Positions 41,742 to 52,643 of a stretch of DNA of 64,000 nucleotides are shown here, one piece after another. The position numbers and the translations under genes are program-made. The notes under the pieces are model-generated. The model was given only the letters and a program-made list of their open reading frames with translations, was not told the DNA's origin and did no database searches. Position 1 is the first letter of the stretch, and the number at the start of each line of letters is the position of its first letter. The DNA is taken from positions 1-64,000 of the forward strand of contig VHCN01000006.1 in NCBI GenBank assembly GCA_016871675.1, written 5' to 3'. This DNA is from Verrucomicrobiota bacterium. GTDB lineage: Bacteria > Verrucomicrobiota > Verrucomicrobiia > Limisphaerales > VHCN01.

Positions 41742-42674
41742 CTAGAAGAACGACGCGCGGTTTGTGAGGAGCTGCCAGTCCACGTTGACGGGCGGGTTCG
41801 CACTGAAAGGCCTCGGACCGATGCCGTCCCACGTGCGCGTGCGGCCATCTTGAACGCGGATCATCTCCACGTGACCATCGGCGTGACCGAGCGGATATGC
41901 CCCGTCGTGGTGCGAAGCGGGCACATCATTCTGGCTGGCTTGAATCGTCATGTGGGTCAGGAAGAACCCATCATTCATGCTGCGCTCGTTTTCGTCGATG
42001 AAGACGTATCGGAGGTCGGGTTTGTCAATGTCGAGCAGGCGGTAGAAGATTTTTGCCCCGGTGAGAAAGTTATCCGCCCCGCCCATGAAGTTGTTCGCCG
42101 AGTAGCTGCGCACCCGGTCATGGCCAAGGGTGACGCCGGCAAACGCCGAAGCCTCGTTGCGATACTTGTCCGACGGGCAACGGTAGGATTTGAAGTTGCC
42201 GACATACCGATAGAAGAGCGTCCGCGTGATGCCGTAGGTGTTGGTCGCGTAGTTCATCGTCTGCGCGGAGCCGCTCGCGCCGGGGTCGGCTTTGGCTGCA
42301 TCCTCGGCCAGCATGCTGAACATCTGGTAAAAGGGGTCGTTGTCCATCGAACCGATGACCCATGCCTCGGGGTTCCTGCGATTGCTCGTGCCCCACGGTC
42401 CCGCCCCGGCCACTCGCGGGTTATACCAAAGGTGGACCTGCACCATCCGCTCGTCGGCCTCCGAAGCGTAGAGGTGCCATCCATTCATCAACTGCTTGAT
42501 GTTGTTGAGCGAAACGGTGCCCTTCGTCTTAATCTTCGCCTTGGCCAAGGACGGCAGCAGCAACCCGGCGAGGATTGCGATGATGGCGATGACGACAAGC
42601 AGTTCGATCAGCGTAAAACCGGCCGGGCGTGGTGGCCCTTGGGTGACGGTCTGAAGACGGAGGTTCGCATGCAT
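41742..42674 (-). CDS. DUF1559-type prepilin-like protein
   Basis: A 310-residue protein with a class III (type IV pilin) signal: GFTLIELLVVIAIIAILAGLLLPSLAKAK, residues about 20-48, with the Gly-Phe cleavage site and Glu+5. The C-terminal region has the His-rich DUF1559 signature (SHHDGAYPLGHADGHVEMI). Such proteins are greatly expanded in Planctomycetota and Verrucomicrobiota and are thought to be secreted through pseudopilus-type machinery. It is processed by a prepilin peptidase not in this window. Confidence 0.85.
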   Translation of the reverse strand: MHANLRLQTVTQGPPRPAGFTLIELLVVIAIIAILAGLLLPSLAKAKIKTKGTVSLNNIKQLMNGWHLYASEADERMVQVHLWYNPRVAGAGPWGTSNRRNPEAWVIGSMDNDPFYQMFSMLAEDAAKADPGASGSAQTMNYATNTYGITRTLFYRYVGNFKSYRCPSDKYRNEASAFAGVTLGHDRVRSYSANNFMGGADNFLTGAKIFYRLLDIDKPDLRYVFIDENERSMNDGFFLTHMTIQASQNDVPASHHDGAYPLGHADGHVEMIRVQDGRTRTWDGIGPRPFSANPPVNVDWQLLTNRASFF

Positions 42675-45010: not shown

Positions 45011-46540
<1,530 letters not shown>

Positions 46541-46557: not shown

Positions 46558-47787
46558 TCAGAGCTCGTTCCAGTTCGTGGCGACGTAGCCGCTGGAGGGG
46601 CCGGTATTTCCAAGCACTTCGTCGTAGTGGAAATTGAAGTGGCCGTTCATGTCCGCGGTCGAGACGATGGCGGCGCCCGCGTAATCGACCGTGTTGTTGC
46701 CGCCGCCACCGCAACTAAAACTCGCATAAGGCGCGTAGAGCATGCCCTTGAAAGCCGCATTCCCCGACAGGCTGAACGACGTGAAGTTGCTCGTGCCGTA
46801 GATGAGCAGGTTCAGCGAGGTGGAACTGGCGTGACGGTTGATCTGCGTATTGCCCGCCGCTGACAGGGTCGTGCCGTTCATGTAAATGGTGAGTTTCGCG
46901 CCCGGTTCGAGCGTAATGCCCCCGGTGATGTTGCCGTTTACGAGGACGGTCGCGACGACGTTTGTGCGGACAGTGAGGGTCGAACTGAAGCCCAGCGAGG
47001 TGTAGTTGCCGCTGGTCGTAATGATGTTGTTACCCGGGACGGGAAGCGAACCGGCAAGCCCCGCCGGGACGGTGACGTCAGGGATCGAGATGCTCAGGTT
47101 GCTGCTGAGCGACCCCGCCTGGAAGCCGGTGCCCGCGTAGGTCAGGTCGCCCACGCGCCCGTTTGGGCCGGTGCTCGCACTGCCGCTGGAACTGATGAGG
47201 ACGGATCCGTAGATGTTGCAGTTCTGCACCGTCACCGTTCCCATCACCGAGCCAACGGAGCCGTTGGCTTTTCGCGTGCCCGCGCTCCAGTTGATGTTCG
47301 TGCCAAGCGAGTCATAGCTGTCGATTGTCACGTTGTTGCCGGAAAAGCCGACGCTGCCCTTGGCCACCAAGCCGCGGCTGAATAGCGGACCGCCGGTTGT
47401 TGTGACCCGCACGACGCGTGAGATTTCACCCGTGCTCGTCGGGATTTTCAGATAACCTTGAGAATAGATCACCGGCGGGCTCACGTTCGAGATGGAGACG
47501 ACATACCGGCCCATCCCAAAGCTGCGTGACTTGGTGTAGGCGTTGCTCGTGAGAACCCAGCCGTTGGCCGAGAGATTGGAACCACCGTGGTAGAGTTGAG
47601 TGAACGCCTCCTCGACACCCGCCTCCATGACCGGCACGATCGAGTGCCACTGCTGCGAACGAGTCACTGCCCGGTTCTGCGCGCTGGTCAGGTCGAGGTA
47701 GCTGAGGATCGTCAGCCCGATGATGGCCGAAAGGATGAGGGTGACGACGAGCGCGCTGCCGCGGGAGTGGTGGGAGCGGAGGTTCAT
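46558..47787 (-). CDS. PilX-like minor pilin with beta-rich C-terminal domain (copy 2)
   Basis: A 409-residue protein. The N-terminus GSALVVTLILSAIIGLTILSYL is a PilX-type transmembrane segment. A helical stalk follows (to about 60), then a Ser/Gly/Asn/Thr-rich beta region with repeated short motifs (about 130-400). This is the kind of DUF7305-like domain found in pilus-tip or surface proteins. It is the third gene of the second V-W-X minor-pilin module. It starts 6 bases after the PilW-like stop and converges on pyrB, 17 bases apart. Confidence 0.7.
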   Translation of the reverse strand: MNLRSHHSRGSALVVTLILSAIIGLTILSYLDLTSAQNRAVTRSQQWHSIVPVMEAGVEEAFTQLYHGGSNLSANGWVLTSNAYTKSRSFGMGRYVVSISNVSPPVIYSQGYLKIPTSTGEISRVVRVTTTGGPLFSRGLVAKGSVGFSGNNVTIDSYDSLGTNINWSAGTRKANGSVGSVMGTVTVQNCNIYGSVLISSSGSASTGPNGRVGDLTYAGTGFQAGSLSSNLSISIPDVTVPAGLAGSLPVPGNNIITTSGNYTSLGFSSTLTVRTNVVATVLVNGNITGGITLEPGAKLTIYMNGTTLSAAGNTQINRHASSTSLNLLIYGTSNFTSFSLSGNAAFKGMLYAPYASFSCGGGGNNTVDYAGAAIVSTADMNGHFNFHYDEVLGNTGPSSGYVATNWNEL

Positions 47788-47793
47788 GACGCG

Positions 47794-48366
47794 TCATTGT
47801 TGCTTGCGGATGACGATCTTGGCGGATTGCACGCTCTCCGTGTTGACCTCGCTGCCGAGGATGGTGCGGGTGCACGTCCAGCTCACGCGGATGAGCTTGG
47901 CATTCGTGGCGACGCTCGTGGGAAACTGGTCGAACGAGTTGGAGACGGTGTTGCGGTCAAACATGTCGAAACGTAGCGTGGAGCATTCCTTGAGCAGGGT
48001 CTCGACTTCGGTCCCGAGATAGCGCACGAGCTGCTTGGCGATAGGGTCGTAGGAGTAGATCAAGTTGGTCGTGCCGCCGTTGATGCTCATGACGAGCCTG
48101 TTGGTCGTGTAGTAGTCGAGCCTGTCAGCCTGGCGGATCTCGAGCGACATGCGGTCGAGCGCCTTGCGGCTGTATTGGTCGAGGTCCACGTAGTTGGTGA
48201 TCGCCGCAAAGGCGCGCGCGCCGTAGAGGGTGAGGGTCATCACCGCGGACATCGCAATCAGGAAGATCGTCACGGCGATCATCATCTCCACAAGCGTCAT
48301 GCCGGTGGCTTGCCGGCGCCGCGCACGGACGCGGGCGCGGCTAGTAGATGTAATTCTGCATTCCAT
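47794..48366 (-). CDS. PilW-like prepilin (copy 2)
   Basis: A 190-residue prepilin. The class III signal GMTLVEMMIAVTIFLIAMSAV spans about residues 22-42, with Glu+5 preceded by a basic leader, and is followed by a helix and a beta-rich C-terminal part. The downstream segment DQYSRKALDRMSLEIRQADR parallels RTFSSLQAEVRSATTLKIGN of the protein at 51515, making the two likely paralogues. The start overlaps the 3' end of the upstream PilV-like gene by 26 bases. Confidence 0.75.
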   Translation of the reverse strand: MECRITSTSRARVRARRRQATGMTLVEMMIAVTIFLIAMSAVMTLTLYGARAFAAITNYVDLDQYSRKALDRMSLEIRQADRLDYYTTNRLVMSINGGTTNLIYSYDPIAKQLVRYLGTEVETLLKECSTLRFDMFDRNTVSNSFDQFPTSVATNAKLIRVSWTCTRTILGSEVNTESVQSAKIVIRKQQ

Positions 48367-48865
48367 ATTGCGACACCATGGTGCTCATCGAGCGGGTTCG
48401 CGGCACGCTGCCGTTGGTCCAGTTGAGCGTGACGGTCACCACCCGGAGGTCGTTGCTGTAGGACTCGGTGATGGATGGGACCACCACCGACAGCGTCCCG
48501 TAGAAATTGATGCCCGCCTGATTCGTCGTGAACGAACTGCTGGATGAGGAGGTCGGGAAGAACGGCTCGATGAACGAGGATGGGATGTAGGATGTGCTCG
48601 ACCCGAAGGAGGTCACCTGTGTCCACGTGTAAAGGCGCATCTCCTCCATGCGGTCGGTCATGATCTGCGTGGCGCGCAGGTTTTCACGCGCCATGCTGAT
48701 GATCCCGAACCCCATCGTGATGCCCGTGTAGAGCGAGACGAACATCACCCCAATCACAGAAATGCTAAGCAACACCTCGGGCAGGGTGAAAGCACCAATC
48801 CGGCGGAAGAGGCTCGGAGTCCGCGCCGGGTTGCCCAGCCTATCGATTCTCTGCGTCGTCTTCAC
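48341..48865 (-). CDS. PilV-like prepilin (copy 2)
   Basis: A 174-residue prepilin starting at GTG 48865. The signal AFTLPEVLLSISVIGVMFVSLY (about residues 24-45) has Pro at the position normally held by a hydrophobic residue before Glu+5. The conserved helix ATQIMTDRMEEMRLYTW parallels ALAIQRMEQVRSAKWD in the protein at 52129. A serine-rich loop (SSSSSS) lies near residue 108. It is the first gene of the second module. A longer ATG start at 48955 would add an unconserved segment. Confidence 0.7.
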   Translation of the reverse strand: MKTTQRIDRLGNPARTPSLFRRIGAFTLPEVLLSISVIGVMFVSLYTGITMGFGIISMARENLRATQIMTDRMEEMRLYTWTQVTSFGSSTSYIPSSFIEPFFPTSSSSSSFTTNQAGINFYGTLSVVVPSITESYSNDLRVVTVTLNWTNGSVPRTRSMSTMVSQYGMQNYIY

Positions 48866-49083
48866 TGGATTTGCCTGTGTTTGCTGCTGCCATTGCGATC
48901 CGACCAACCCCTGCTGCCTGGTGGCGTCGCATTCCCCATGCCAACGCCAGCGCACATCGGCGTCGCGCCAACGTGGATGGAAACTGGCCCGATTCCTTGA
49001 GTTGACTCAACGGACGAAAAAGAAGCGTGACTTTGGACGAGCGAGGCACGCCCCCGACGCCCAGCCACGGAGGTGTCGCGCCT

Positions 49084-49776
49084 TCAGATCTTGTCCGAAA
49101 TGGGCGCGATGTCGAGTTTGCCGTTCTCCGCGACCTTGAAAGTCAGGAGGATACTGTTCAAGGCGCTTCGCGCTTCCTCGATGGAAGCGTCGTCACCGCT
49201 GGCTTGGAATTCCACCAACCCGGTGAGCGCCGGCAGGAACACGAAGCGGTGACGCGGGCCGACACCGGTCACTCCGGGCAGATTGAGGTCGAAGCCCGGA
49301 CCCGCCACACCCGATGCCGTGGCAGTGAACTGCTCGGTCACCTTCGCGTTCGGGTGCCGCTGGAGGATGATTGGCAGGCACGACTCGGGTTTCAGTTCAC
49401 GTTTCGTGGCGGGCGATGCGGCCTGGCCCTGAGCCGTCTGTGGCGGCGAGTAGAACTGCACGGCGACGGTTGCACGCCCTTCCTGCGCCGTGAAGGTCAC
49501 GCGCCACCGTTGCAGGTCGGTGTGCACCTCGTAGCCACGGGGAATGAGGAACGCAGCCCGATTGGTGCCGAGGGTGACATACGCGCGCTGGATGGGTCCA
49601 AAGGCCTCCGGGCCTTCGCGAACGGCCTTGAGGGAGAACGCCGGGAGCGCGTTTGTCGCGGCCGGTCTCGCTGGAGCGTCCTGCGCGCGAAGCCACGAGG
49701 CACCCGAACCGAGCGTTGCCAGGACGAGGATGAAGCTGACCAGGAATTGGCGGTTAACCGGAGGAATTGGTGACAT
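49084..49776 (-). CDS. Exported unknown protein inside the pilin cluster
   Basis: A 230-residue protein with a signal peptide (residues 1-31, ending SWLRAQD). The mature part (35-230) is mixed alpha/beta with no cysteine pattern beyond one Cys, and I cannot place it in a family. It overlaps the PilX-like copy-1 gene by 23 bases and separates the two minor-pilin modules, suggesting a role in the same machinery. ATG 49776 was chosen because it precedes the signal peptide. Confidence 0.65.
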   Translation of the reverse strand: MSPIPPVNRQFLVSFILVLATLGSGASWLRAQDAPARPAATNALPAFSLKAVREGPEAFGPIQRAYVTLGTNRAAFLIPRGYEVHTDLQRWRVTFTAQEGRATVAVQFYSPPQTAQGQAASPATKRELKPESCLPIILQRHPNAKVTEQFTATASGVAGPGFDLNLPGVTGVGPRHRFVFLPALTGLVEFQASGDDASIEEARSALNSILLTFKVAENGKLDIAPISDKI

Positions 49777-51508
49777 TGGCGATGGGGTTGCCCCAACTCC
49801 CGCGGATGAGCGTCCGCAGGACAGGTGTGCCCGGTGGCAGTTTGGTCACATCGAGGAAGTTCTGGTCAAAGTTAAAGTCGCGCGTGGGCGCGTAATAGTA
49901 AACGCCCGGAGTCTGCCACGCGGCGGCGGCTTGCACGCTGTTGAAGAGGTTGATGATCGAGCCATTCAAGGTGAGCCGGACCGCGCCGTTGCCCCAGTCT
50001 TCCAGCAGCCGCGGCAGGTTCATCACCCCGCCGCTGAAGGGAGCCGAGCCGGTCGAGCCCGCCGAGTAGACGGTGCCGGTGAGGATGGCGGCGTTGACCG
50101 TGGTATTCGCCGCGTCTCGATTGAGGAAGGAGCCGCTGCTTTGTGAGTCATTCCATGCGGGCGAGAGGATCGTCAGAGCGTCGGACACCAGCGAGGCAGG
50201 CCGGGTGGCGGTGGTGTTGGTCGTGCCGAGGTGGGTGTCCACCGGGCAGTTGAAGTGACCGCGGACGTAGATGGGGTTGGGCGTGGCCACGGTCAGACCG
50301 CGCGTGGGAAGCGTCTGCCCATTGACCAGCCGGACACCATTCATCGTCCTGCTCGAGGTCGTTCGCATGTCGGCAATATAAAGGACACTCGGAGGTGTCC
50401 TCACTCCAAGCGTGGCGATGACCGCCGCGTTGGTTGCCGCCCACGTGCTCAGCCTGCCGACATCAATCTGCGTGGTGCGGACGGTCTTGTCTTCGCGCTG
50501 GTCGGTGAACGTCAGGTCGGTGCTGACGAAGTTCGTGACTTGCACCGACGGGATGGGTGTCGACAGCGAGCTGAAGGGCTGCTTCACGCTCGCGGTCACG
50601 GTGCTGTTGCTGATGAGGATGACCAGTTCGGCCTTGTTGTAGTAGCGCTGCTGCCCCATTGGGCTGGTCATCAGCTCGCTGGCAGGCGGGATGTTGATCA
50701 CCTCGCGCACGGCTGCGGCCGTGTTGTTCGTGCCGATGGGCAGGACGAGCGAAGAAACGTTCGTCGTTTTTCTGTCCTGGTAGGTGATTGAGCCCGTCAT
50801 CGCCGACAGACTGTAGCCACCCCAGCCTTGTTTCTGAATCACGCCAGTCGCGGTGACCACATCCTTAAAGAGCAGCGGGGCCGCGGAACCCGTGTAGACG
50901 TTCGCGTTGGCGTGCACGCGGCCGCGGACGGTGAACGGCGCCGCCCAGGTGAACTCAAGCAGGCTGTTGTAGAAGATCGCGAACTGGAATACGGGGATCG
51001 ATGCGAGCTGGATGTCCTGCTGCACCGCGTTCGTAAGGACGAACCTGCCACTGGTCTGCCTGGCGTTGGAGAGCACGCGGTAGGTCGAGGCAAACCCGCT
51101 CAACCCCGCATACTGCCCGGAGAGCGTGGTGTAAACCTGCGTCGCGGTGCGCTCGACATACGTCCGGTTGGTCCCGCCTTGTGCGTCGCTGAACGCGAAG
51201 TTGGTCCAATGCGCGGACTCCGATGGGGTGGGGATGTTGGTCCGGTAGACCACGAGGTTGTTGTAAACGGCCGACTCATTGCCTGCCTTGAAGTCCGTGA
51301 GCATGCGGGTGACGGCCTTCTCGGTCGCGGCTTCGGCCGCGGACAGCGTCACGCTCAACTGGTTGTTGCGCTCATTGAGCAGGGCGGTGCTGCTGGTCCA
51401 GTTCATCGACGCGCTCATCACGAGCAGCGCGATGCCGGCCAGGATCAACACCATGACCAGGGCGTAGCCCTTGGCCTTCCGGTTCGATGGGTTCGTGCGG
51501 GTTCGCAT
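49754..51508 (-). CDS. PilX-like minor pilin, long form (copy 1)
   Basis: A 584-residue protein. The N-terminal GYALVMVLILAGIALLVMSASM is a PilX-type membrane segment. A helical stalk (LLNERNNQLSVTLSAAEAATE) and a long Thr/Asn/Ser-rich beta region follow (about 130-560). It parallels the 409-residue protein at 46558 in layout but has a much longer and different C-terminal part. It is the third gene of the first module; its stop overlaps the start of the exported unknown protein. Confidence 0.7.
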   Translation of the reverse strand: MRTRTNPSNRKAKGYALVMVLILAGIALLVMSASMNWTSSTALLNERNNQLSVTLSAAEAATEKAVTRMLTDFKAGNESAVYNNLVVYRTNIPTPSESAHWTNFAFSDAQGGTNRTYVERTATQVYTTLSGQYAGLSGFASTYRVLSNARQTSGRFVLTNAVQQDIQLASIPVFQFAIFYNSLLEFTWAAPFTVRGRVHANANVYTGSAAPLLFKDVVTATGVIQKQGWGGYSLSAMTGSITYQDRKTTNVSSLVLPIGTNNTAAAVREVINIPPASELMTSPMGQQRYYNKAELVILISNSTVTASVKQPFSSLSTPIPSVQVTNFVSTDLTFTDQREDKTVRTTQIDVGRLSTWAATNAAVIATLGVRTPPSVLYIADMRTTSSRTMNGVRLVNGQTLPTRGLTVATPNPIYVRGHFNCPVDTHLGTTNTTATRPASLVSDALTILSPAWNDSQSSGSFLNRDAANTTVNAAILTGTVYSAGSTGSAPFSGGVMNLPRLLEDWGNGAVRLTLNGSIINLFNSVQAAAAWQTPGVYYYAPTRDFNFDQNFLDVTKLPPGTPVLRTLIRGSWGNPIANVTNSSG

Positions 51509-51514
51509 GATGCG

Positions 51515-52126
51515 TCAGAGGATTCGCCGGGCGATCTTCGCCTGTAGCTGGTAGTAGTCGAAAGCATTGCTCGGGCCAATCTTCGTAAACGGATACTGGA
51601 GCTGGTAAAACTGCAGGGTGATGTTGATGACACGGTTGTTCGCAGTCTCCGTCAGCACCGTGCCCTGGAAGTTCTCTGCCTTGAAGATGATCGAATTGGT
51701 CAGGTAGCGCGCGATGGTGATCGGCGTGGTCGCGCTGGATTGCACCCGCCGCAGTTCGCTCGAGTTCGTGTCGAAGTAGTATCGCGACCAAATGTTCGTC
51801 GCGGTCGTCCGGTAAATCTGCAGCGCCATACCCTGCTGGGCCGAGCCGTCGGCGACCTGCACAAAGTTGGTGGCCGTCCCATTGCCGATCTTGAGCGTCG
51901 TGGCCGACCGGACTTCGGCTTGCAAGGATGAGAATGTTCGCCGGGCCATGTCGTCTGCACCCAGCTTGCGGATCGTCCACTCATTGAGCCGCAGGCCCAT
52001 GATATGCGCGGCGATCACCGCGCCGATGACCACGGTGAAGATGCCCATCGAAATCATCATCTCCGTGAGCGTGAGCGCCCTCCGAGCCCGCCGGGCCTCC
52101 GCCGCCTTTGAAGGGGTCGTGCGCAT
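51515..52126 (-). CDS. PilW-like prepilin (copy 1)
   Basis: A 203-residue prepilin starting at ATG 52126. A basic leader (MRTTPSKAAEARRARRA) is followed by the class III signal LTLTEMMISMGIFTVVIGAV with Glu+5. The C-terminal beta-rich domain spans about 60-200. It starts 2 bases after the PilV-like stop and precedes the PilX-like gene by 6 bases, so the three are cotranscribed. A longer upstream in-frame start overlaps the previous gene and was not chosen. Confidence 0.75.
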   Translation of the reverse strand: MRTTPSKAAEARRARRALTLTEMMISMGIFTVVIGAVIAAHIMGLRLNEWTIRKLGADDMARRTFSSLQAEVRSATTLKIGNGTATNFVQVADGSAQQGMALQIYRTTATNIWSRYYFDTNSSELRRVQSSATTPITIARYLTNSIIFKAENFQGTVLTETANNRVINITLQFYQLQYPFTKIGPSNAFDYYQLQAKIARRIL

Positions 52127-52128
52127 GG

Positions 52129-52590
52129 CTAGTTGTCCGGCGCGCGATAGGTGACGAGCGTGTTCGTGAAGCGCCGCCCGGTCTGCGCGAACCGCCACAC
52201 GCAGGCCACCTGGATCATCTTCAGCCTGGGCGCCACGGCTGAAAGCGTGGTGATCGTCGTGAAATTCGTCGCGTAAACCACGTTGGTTCCGGCCACCGGC
52301 AGGTCCAAAATGGTGATTTGCACCGGGAAGTTGGTCGAAACGAGTTCATCCACGCCGGCCTCGGTGTCCCACTTCGCCGAGCGCACCTGTTCCATCCGCT
52401 GGATCGCCAGCGCCTGCGCCGCGTAAGAAAGCCCGGACCACTCCGCGCGCGAGGCCGACTGGGTATATCCGTAGATGACGCCGACGATCGTGATGGCCGC
52501 GAGCAGCACCGCCATGACTACTTCCACCAGGGTGAATCCGCTCGTTTCTCGAAGCGACCAGCCTGGGCGGGCATTGAGTTCGATCGTCAT
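52129..52590 (-). CDS. PilV/GspI-like prepilin (copy 1)
   Basis: A 153-residue prepilin starting at ATG 52590. The signal GFTLVEVVMAVLLAAITIVGVIY (about residues 18-40) has the GF cleavage site and Glu+5, followed by the helix SYAAQALAIQRMEQVRSAKWD. It is the first gene of the cluster, and a good promoter lies 54-81 bases upstream of its start. Minor pilins of this type prime pilus or pseudopilus assembly. Confidence 0.78.
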   Translation of the reverse strand: MTIELNARPGWSLRETSGFTLVEVVMAVLLAAITIVGVIYGYTQSASRAEWSGLSYAAQALAIQRMEQVRSAKWDTEAGVDELVSTNFPVQITILDLPVAGTNVVYATNFTTITTLSAVAPRLKMIQVACVWRFAQTGRRFTNTLVTYRAPDN

Positions 52591-52643
52591 GGAAGGCGAA
52601 ACACGGCCGGGCAACGGCGAACGCCCCGGCTACCGTTGCTGCG

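Follow-up and report, generated by a model that had tools for sequence, protein, structure and literature searches.

Type 4 filaments are assembled tip first, from a complex of minor pilins that is capped by a subunit without Glu5 (PMC10191384). In Thermus thermophilus the pilin ComZ (gene order pilA1-pilA2-pilA3-comZ; structure 6qvi) has a pseudopilin-like domain into which an FfIBP-related beta-solenoid is inserted, after the penultimate strand and before the last; it binds DNA, its partner pilin PilA2 is encoded alongside, and its position at the tip was argued on steric grounds (PMC6561018). ComZ is presented as unusual in the literature. Duplicated minor-pilin operons with divergent roles (pilEVWX 1 and 2) are described in Xylella fastidiosa (PMC9956873), and Myxococcus xanthus has three pilY1 operons that include minor pilins, and the HsfBA phosphorelay sets two of these operons (PMC9109919). 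Here we analyzed a locus of seven minus-strand open reading frames (ORFs), V1-W1-X1-E-V2-W2-X2 (52614-46558), in a stretch of 64,000 nucleotides, called the window, from a Verrucomicrobiota bacterium (order Limisphaerales; assembly GCA_016871675.1, 3.6 Mb; positions 1 to 64,000 of contig VHCN01000006.1, here C6). V, W and X are minor pilins and E is an exported protein. A preliminary description of this DNA had given the same gene order, with small gaps and overlaps, which the ORFs confirmed, and had suggested two specialised tip complexes. The best reading of the present data, to which we give a probability of about 0.66, is likewise that the locus holds two ancient paralogous minor-pilin modules of I-J-K (V-W-X) type which form two alternative tips of ComZ type, and that one bacterium may swap its pilus tips.

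The kinship of the two modules was examined in 58 genomes, which represent as many different families of the order to which the window genome belongs, and the GspH-I-J-K clusters of type II secretion systems (T2SS) in the same genomes, with three GspI and three GspJ families, were used as comparators. V1 (52129..52614, minus strand; likely ATG at 52590; motif SGFTLVEV) and V2 (48341..48865, minus strand; likely GTG start at 48865; motif IGAFTLPEV) are PilV/GspI-like, W1 (51515..52126, minus strand; ATG at 52126; motif RALTLTEM) and W2 (47794..48366, minus strand; motif TGMTLVEM) are PilW/GspJ-like, and all four have prepilin motifs with Glu5. The N_methyl profile is matched by W1 at 23.7 bits and by W2 at 27.4 bits, and by V1 below the cut-off. 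Against the PilV family TIGR02523 (cut-off 52.2 bits) V1 scores 22.4 bits, which is below, and V2 is not listed; the signature of the V2 family is ENLRATQIMLEKMETIRLY.WDQ.

Profiles were compared after removal of the N-terminal 30 residues. V1 and V2 aligned with a probability of 87% over 84 columns and W1 and W2 with 89% over 72 columns, both collinearly. Either V gave at most 25% against the three GspI families and either W at most 12% against the three GspJ families; the GspJ families reached 92-95% among themselves, and V against W gave no alignment. The likeness within the V pair and within the W pair exceeds that of the general pilin helix, because the tails still align without the first 30 residues, and the pairwise correspondence of helices and stalks noted in the preliminary description is thus upheld. 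Tail comparisons by single sequences were too weak to decide the pairing. X1 and X2 aligned at 97% over their first ~70 residues, and no sequence similarity was found between them beyond that point, solenoids included. Membership of V and W in the T2SS I and J families was rejected, their profiles being set apart from all three I and all three J families.

In the trees the W1+W2 branch has a support of 96 and the V1+V2 branch of 85-91, and the W1 and W2 clades have values of 95 and 100 in the Shimodaira-Hasegawa-like approximate likelihood ratio test (SH-aLRT). Trees forced to pair the window copies were rejected by the approximately unbiased test (p-AU 5e-6 for V and 2e-105 for W). Each window gene falls inside a separate family that spans the order, and pairing is rejected, so the split came before the families of the order. 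Judged from these alignments and trees, the two V-W-X sets are truly paralogous, V with V, W with W and X with X; their duplication is ancient and predates the families of the order; and V1/V2 and W1/W2 are, by the same comparisons, mutual closest relatives ahead of the GspI and GspJ families of the order. Neither trees nor profiles placed the members of a pair in unrelated pilin families, the outcome which the preliminary description had named as contrary to its proposal.

X1 (49754..51508, minus strand) is a large minor pilin of PilX/GspK/ComZ type and X2 (46558..47787, minus strand) is of PilX/ComZ type. In both the hydrophobic helix is present and Glu5 is absent (GYALVMV in X1, GSALVVT in X2), and the same holds for the aligned relatives of each. 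The C-terminal part of X2 matches Pfam DUF7305 (PF23981) at 61.9 bits, above the cut-off of 27, as do 12 of its 12 relatives. The structure prediction proposed in the preliminary description was run for the X pair with AlphaFold2, on alignments of 43 sequences for X1 (pLDDT 89.6, pTM 0.83) and 12 for X2 (pLDDT 83.2, pTM 0.67). Both models run from a long N-terminal helix through an antiparallel sheet and many short strands to a final strand: in X1 the helix spans 7-83, the pilin sheet 104-172, a beta-solenoid ~173-555 and the last pilin strand 563-573, and in X2 the corresponding parts span 9-68, 78-134, ~135-392 and 398-408. The top Foldseek match in the PDB was ComZ 6qvi for both models (1.1e-7 for X1, 8.7e-6 for X2), and VIA-align gave Z 14.9 over 358 residues for X1 and Z 13.4 over 307 for X2 against ComZ. 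The solenoid of X1 resembles ice-binding proteins at Z about 11, and that of X2 resembles the ice-binding protein FfIBP (4nu2) at Z 18.1, with a root-mean-square deviation (rmsd) of 2.5 over 190 residues. X1 and X2 are therefore predicted to have a pilin fold with a beta-solenoid of ice-binding type inserted before the last strand; the alpha-helical domain of GspK type is present in neither model, and a beta-solenoid stands in its place. The preliminary description had put the strongest C-terminal divergence in the X pair, which is true of the sequences and not of the predicted architecture, since the latter is of ComZ type in both.

ComZ is thus the best whole-length structural match of both models, and the features that mark a ComZ-type pilin were found in both modules: an inserted solenoid, by prediction, a missing Glu5 and an adjoining gene for an I/V-like pilin. 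The window differs in having two paralogous modules versus one and in belonging to another phylum, and DNA binding is known for ComZ, whereas X1 and X2 are known from genes and models. With GspI-GspJ-GspK of T2SS and FimU-PilV-PilW-PilX of type IVa pili the modules share the I-J-K order, pilins of matching class and a K/X member without Glu5; however, they are separate sequence families, their predicted solenoid stands against the alpha-domain of GspK, and they have no gene of FimU/GspH type. Xylella and M. xanthus are alike in carrying paralogous tip modules with divergent roles in one genome, and in M. xanthus a kinase-regulator relay picks the tip; there, however, the variable tip is PilY1 and not a pilin-borne solenoid, the operons lie apart and the types of kinase and regulator differ.

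Because tip-first assembly starts from a minor-pilin complex capped by a Glu5-less subunit, we infer that V and W prime the filament and that X caps it. Held by their N-terminal helices, V and W would sit beneath X and make up the first layer of a type IV filament; X would hold out a beta-solenoid receptor that, as in ComZ, is inserted in the pilin head between its two final strands. X1 and X2 would offer two differing solenoid surfaces on the same chassis, and filaments could be begun with either tip. Most likely each module is an alternative tip-priming complex that shows a solenoid receptor, whose ligand could be polysaccharide, DNA or other. In this order of soil, groundwater and freshwater bacteria, which are known mostly from metagenomes, two ancient families of paralogues share the predicted ComZ-type architecture, and this suggests that pili with solenoid tips are a common solution. 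The finding also makes testable a general question, namely how one filament type alters its binding when a different minor-pilin module starts it.

Roughly half of the sampled families have module 1 and roughly half have module 2 (X1 in 28 and X2 in 34 of the 58 genomes), and the one- and two-module versions foreseen in the preliminary description both occur: 20 genomes have both X types, 8 have X1 only, 14 have X2 only and 16 have neither. Co-occurrence is weak (one-sided Fisher p 0.05), and each module is self-sufficient, because single modules occur in many genomes. In the fetched regions V1-W1 nearly always precede X1 and V2-W2 nearly always precede X2, and cross-matches are weak and at the level of the helix. 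The V1 family was met in 27 or more related loci, with W1-X1 nearly always next to it. The window genome has one X1 and one X2.

The modules also stand together far more often than expected by chance. They lie at most 12 kb apart in 5 of the 20 two-module genomes (the window genome, G012, G016, G034 and G044) versus 0.16 expected, and module 2 was met within about 10 kb of module 1 in 10 of 49 X1 loci. Both modules are in one array in the window and in the related loci L191, L193, L207, L216, L217 and L219, with the orders 1-2-1 (L216), 1-2-2 (L217) and 1-2-2-1 (L219), and they form divergent pairs in L196 and L227. In L191 the arrangement is V1-W1-X1-E-[histidine kinase-response regulator]-V2-W2-X2, convergent with pyrB-pyrR, and the window has this arrangement minus the two-component pair. 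A PAS/HisKA_3 histidine kinase and a NarL-type response regulator lie between E and V2 in three loci (L191:4111-7253, L193:12305-15490, L207:10265-13028), where the window has a non-coding gap of 218 nt between the modules (48866..49083). Relatives of this pair, or of one of its members, also adjoin module 1 or 2 in L072, L097, L099, L184, L190, L216 and L217, which brings such loci to about ten in all. The kinase and regulator probably select between the tips or switch them on, and it is suggested that a single cell may have several tips governed by a two-component system.

At the other end of the array pyrB (45599..46540, plus strand) is convergent with X2 at a distance of 17 bp, and this junction is kept in relatives; pyrR (45015-45602, plus strand) lies beside pyrB and faces the array together with it. 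Module 2 stands at pyrB in L191, where it ends the array as in the window, and module 1 stands there in L200 and L219. As the simplest reading, we infer an ancestral locus V1-W1-X1-E-HK-RR-V2-W2-X2 (HK, histidine kinase; RR, response regulator) facing pyrB, from which the window would have lost the kinase and the regulator; no remnant of either was found in the 218-nt gap. The pyrR-pyrB pair (window 45015-46540) is in itself a conserved convergent neighbour of minor-pilin modules, whether module 1 or module 2, and at least four lineages distant from one another show this (window, L191, L200, L219).

If a single V-W-X module had recently been duplicated in tandem in the window lineage, this would account for paralogous triplets that are adjacent and in the same order and strand, and true tandem duplicates of a single module do exist in L106, L204 (X1-E only) and L210. 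The window genes, however, nest in the separate order-wide families described above, pairing is rejected for both V and W, and the X pair is alike in sequence over its first ~70 residues only, which makes this explanation extremely unlikely. The tandem duplication claimed in the preliminary description is thus retained as to paralogous triplets and an adjacency above chance, and local duplication in this lineage was rejected by the trees. It is rather improbable that the modules are pseudopilin tips of type II secretion, in which X would present or recognise secreted proteins and not outside ligands. V, W and X resemble I, J and K, classical T2SS clusters are present in the genome and 3 of the 43 X1 relatives weakly match T2SS_GspK, but those clusters bring IJK sets of their own that are grouped away from V and W, no secretion genes adjoin the modules, and the predicted solenoid replaces the alpha-domain of GspK type. 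One mixed tip complex of six pilins, in place of two alternative tips, would fit the seven arrays that carry both modules; yet 22 of the 42 module-bearing genomes have one X type only, hence neither X needs the other, and both X are Glu5-less caps whereas a filament has one tip, so we hold a mixed tip to be very unlikely.

Two further explanations concern the ligand. In filamentous cyanobacteria HpsA-HpsB-HpsC-HpsD comprise a membrane protein and clustered pseudopilins (HpsB-D), which are thought to act with the type IV pilus machine in polysaccharide export (NF038301; PMC6495340), and module 1, with an HpsA-like X1 and V/W pseudopilins, might likewise aid such a machine in the export or binding of polysaccharide. 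All 43 X1 relatives match NCBIfam EPS_HpsA at E <= 0.01 (best 2.8e-27), and a resemblance to the cellulose-binding tapirin appears in 3 of the 43 by profile and in the fold at Z 7.4. X1 itself, however, matches EPS_HpsA at 4.8e-14 with 51 bits, far below the family cut-off of 400, and has 584 residues against a profile of 1503 positions; no glycosyltransferase operon adjoins the modules in the window, no Hps glycosyltransferases lie beside X1, and module 1 only would be explained, so that we consider a role of this kind possible but doubtful. At least one module might instead serve natural transformation by capturing DNA with the pilus tip, in the manner of ComZ, given the predicted architecture and a gene neighbourhood like that of comZ with pilA1-pilA2-pilA3. 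ComEC and DprA are present in the window genome, though they are not specific: ComEC occurs in 54 of the 58 genomes independently of the modules, and is thus uninformative as a marker of DNA uptake, and most control genomes have both proteins as well. With net charges of +4 and 0 the predicted solenoids are close to neutral, yet ComZ itself has no positive patch. A DNA receptor is accordingly a minority prospect among the functions considered.

Several points weigh against two alternative tips of ComZ type. The superpositions on ComZ have an rmsd near 11 A, perhaps from a different angle between the domains, and the structures are predictions; profile searches of the PDB with the X1 and X2 alignments list no ComZ at E <= 1. 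The filament and the tip position are predictions from genes and models, and the ligands named above are candidates. The sister grouping of V1 and V2 is not starred in the tree. The kinase-regulator pair is absent from the window, with no homologue on C6:1-79000. In the relatives closest to the window by X1 (L182-L190), module 2 is absent from the available 0.4-10 kb downstream of X1, and the adjacency of the modules in the window could therefore also be a secondary reunion. A wider and more tentative idea, to which we lean less than to its opposite, is that the order keeps a regulated combinatorial library of tips, made of interchangeable V-W-X cassettes with ComZ-like solenoid heads, among which adjoining kinase-regulator pairs would choose the tip. 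The cassettes might then have been duplicated, interleaved and dispersed as building blocks, and the window might hold a reduced form of an ancestral two-cassette locus.

Within module 1 the distance from V1 to W1 is 2 nt and from W1 to X1 6 nt, and X1 and E overlap by 23 nt; in module 2, V2 and W2 overlap by 26 nt and W2 is followed by X2 after 6 nt. E (49084..49776, minus strand) is assigned to module 1 because a homologue follows X1 directly in about half of the 49 related loci; no Pfam match was found for E or for two of its homologues. One sigma-70-like site lies upstream of V1, where 1.0 such sites are expected by chance. The few-base spacing within the modules stated in the preliminary description is correct, whereas its single promoter for all seven genes is not demonstrated, because a non-coding stretch of 218 nt lies between E and V2. 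In L085, L205, L211, L214 and L215 the ORF directly after X1 encodes a protein of 712-941 aa with two receiver domains, perhaps another regulator of the same module.

The single shared assembly ATPase of the preliminary description finds no support, as full-length matches to PF00437 number seven in the window genome, with one lying in the window at 36 kb from the locus, and four secretins are present as well. PilY1 (PF05567) has no match in the window genome and likewise none in 14 control genomes. Literature searches on tapirin with type IV pili and on pseudopilins of Verrucomicrobiota gave nothing directly relevant. In the 3.6 Mb of the window genome 61 pilin-type N-termini of the N_methyl family were counted, many of them in FTLIELLVVIAIIAILAGLLLP-type genes like that at window 41742-42674.

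Besides the five two-module genomes with the modules close together, a sixth of the 20, G053, has V1 alone beside module 2. Its W1 and X1 are split over several frames (L095:2272-4616), and the lone V1 is divergent from module 2 in L101. The closest named relatives of X1 come from metagenome-assembled genomes of Verrucomicrobiota labelled Verrucomicrobia, Limisphaerales or Pedosphaera. This locus, of Verrucomicrobiota type, is also found in L183, L185, L187, L189, L190 and L195, which are titled Klebsiella pneumoniae, Akkermansia muciniphila or Proteobacteria bacterium, and these titles of metagenome-assembled genomes look wrong.

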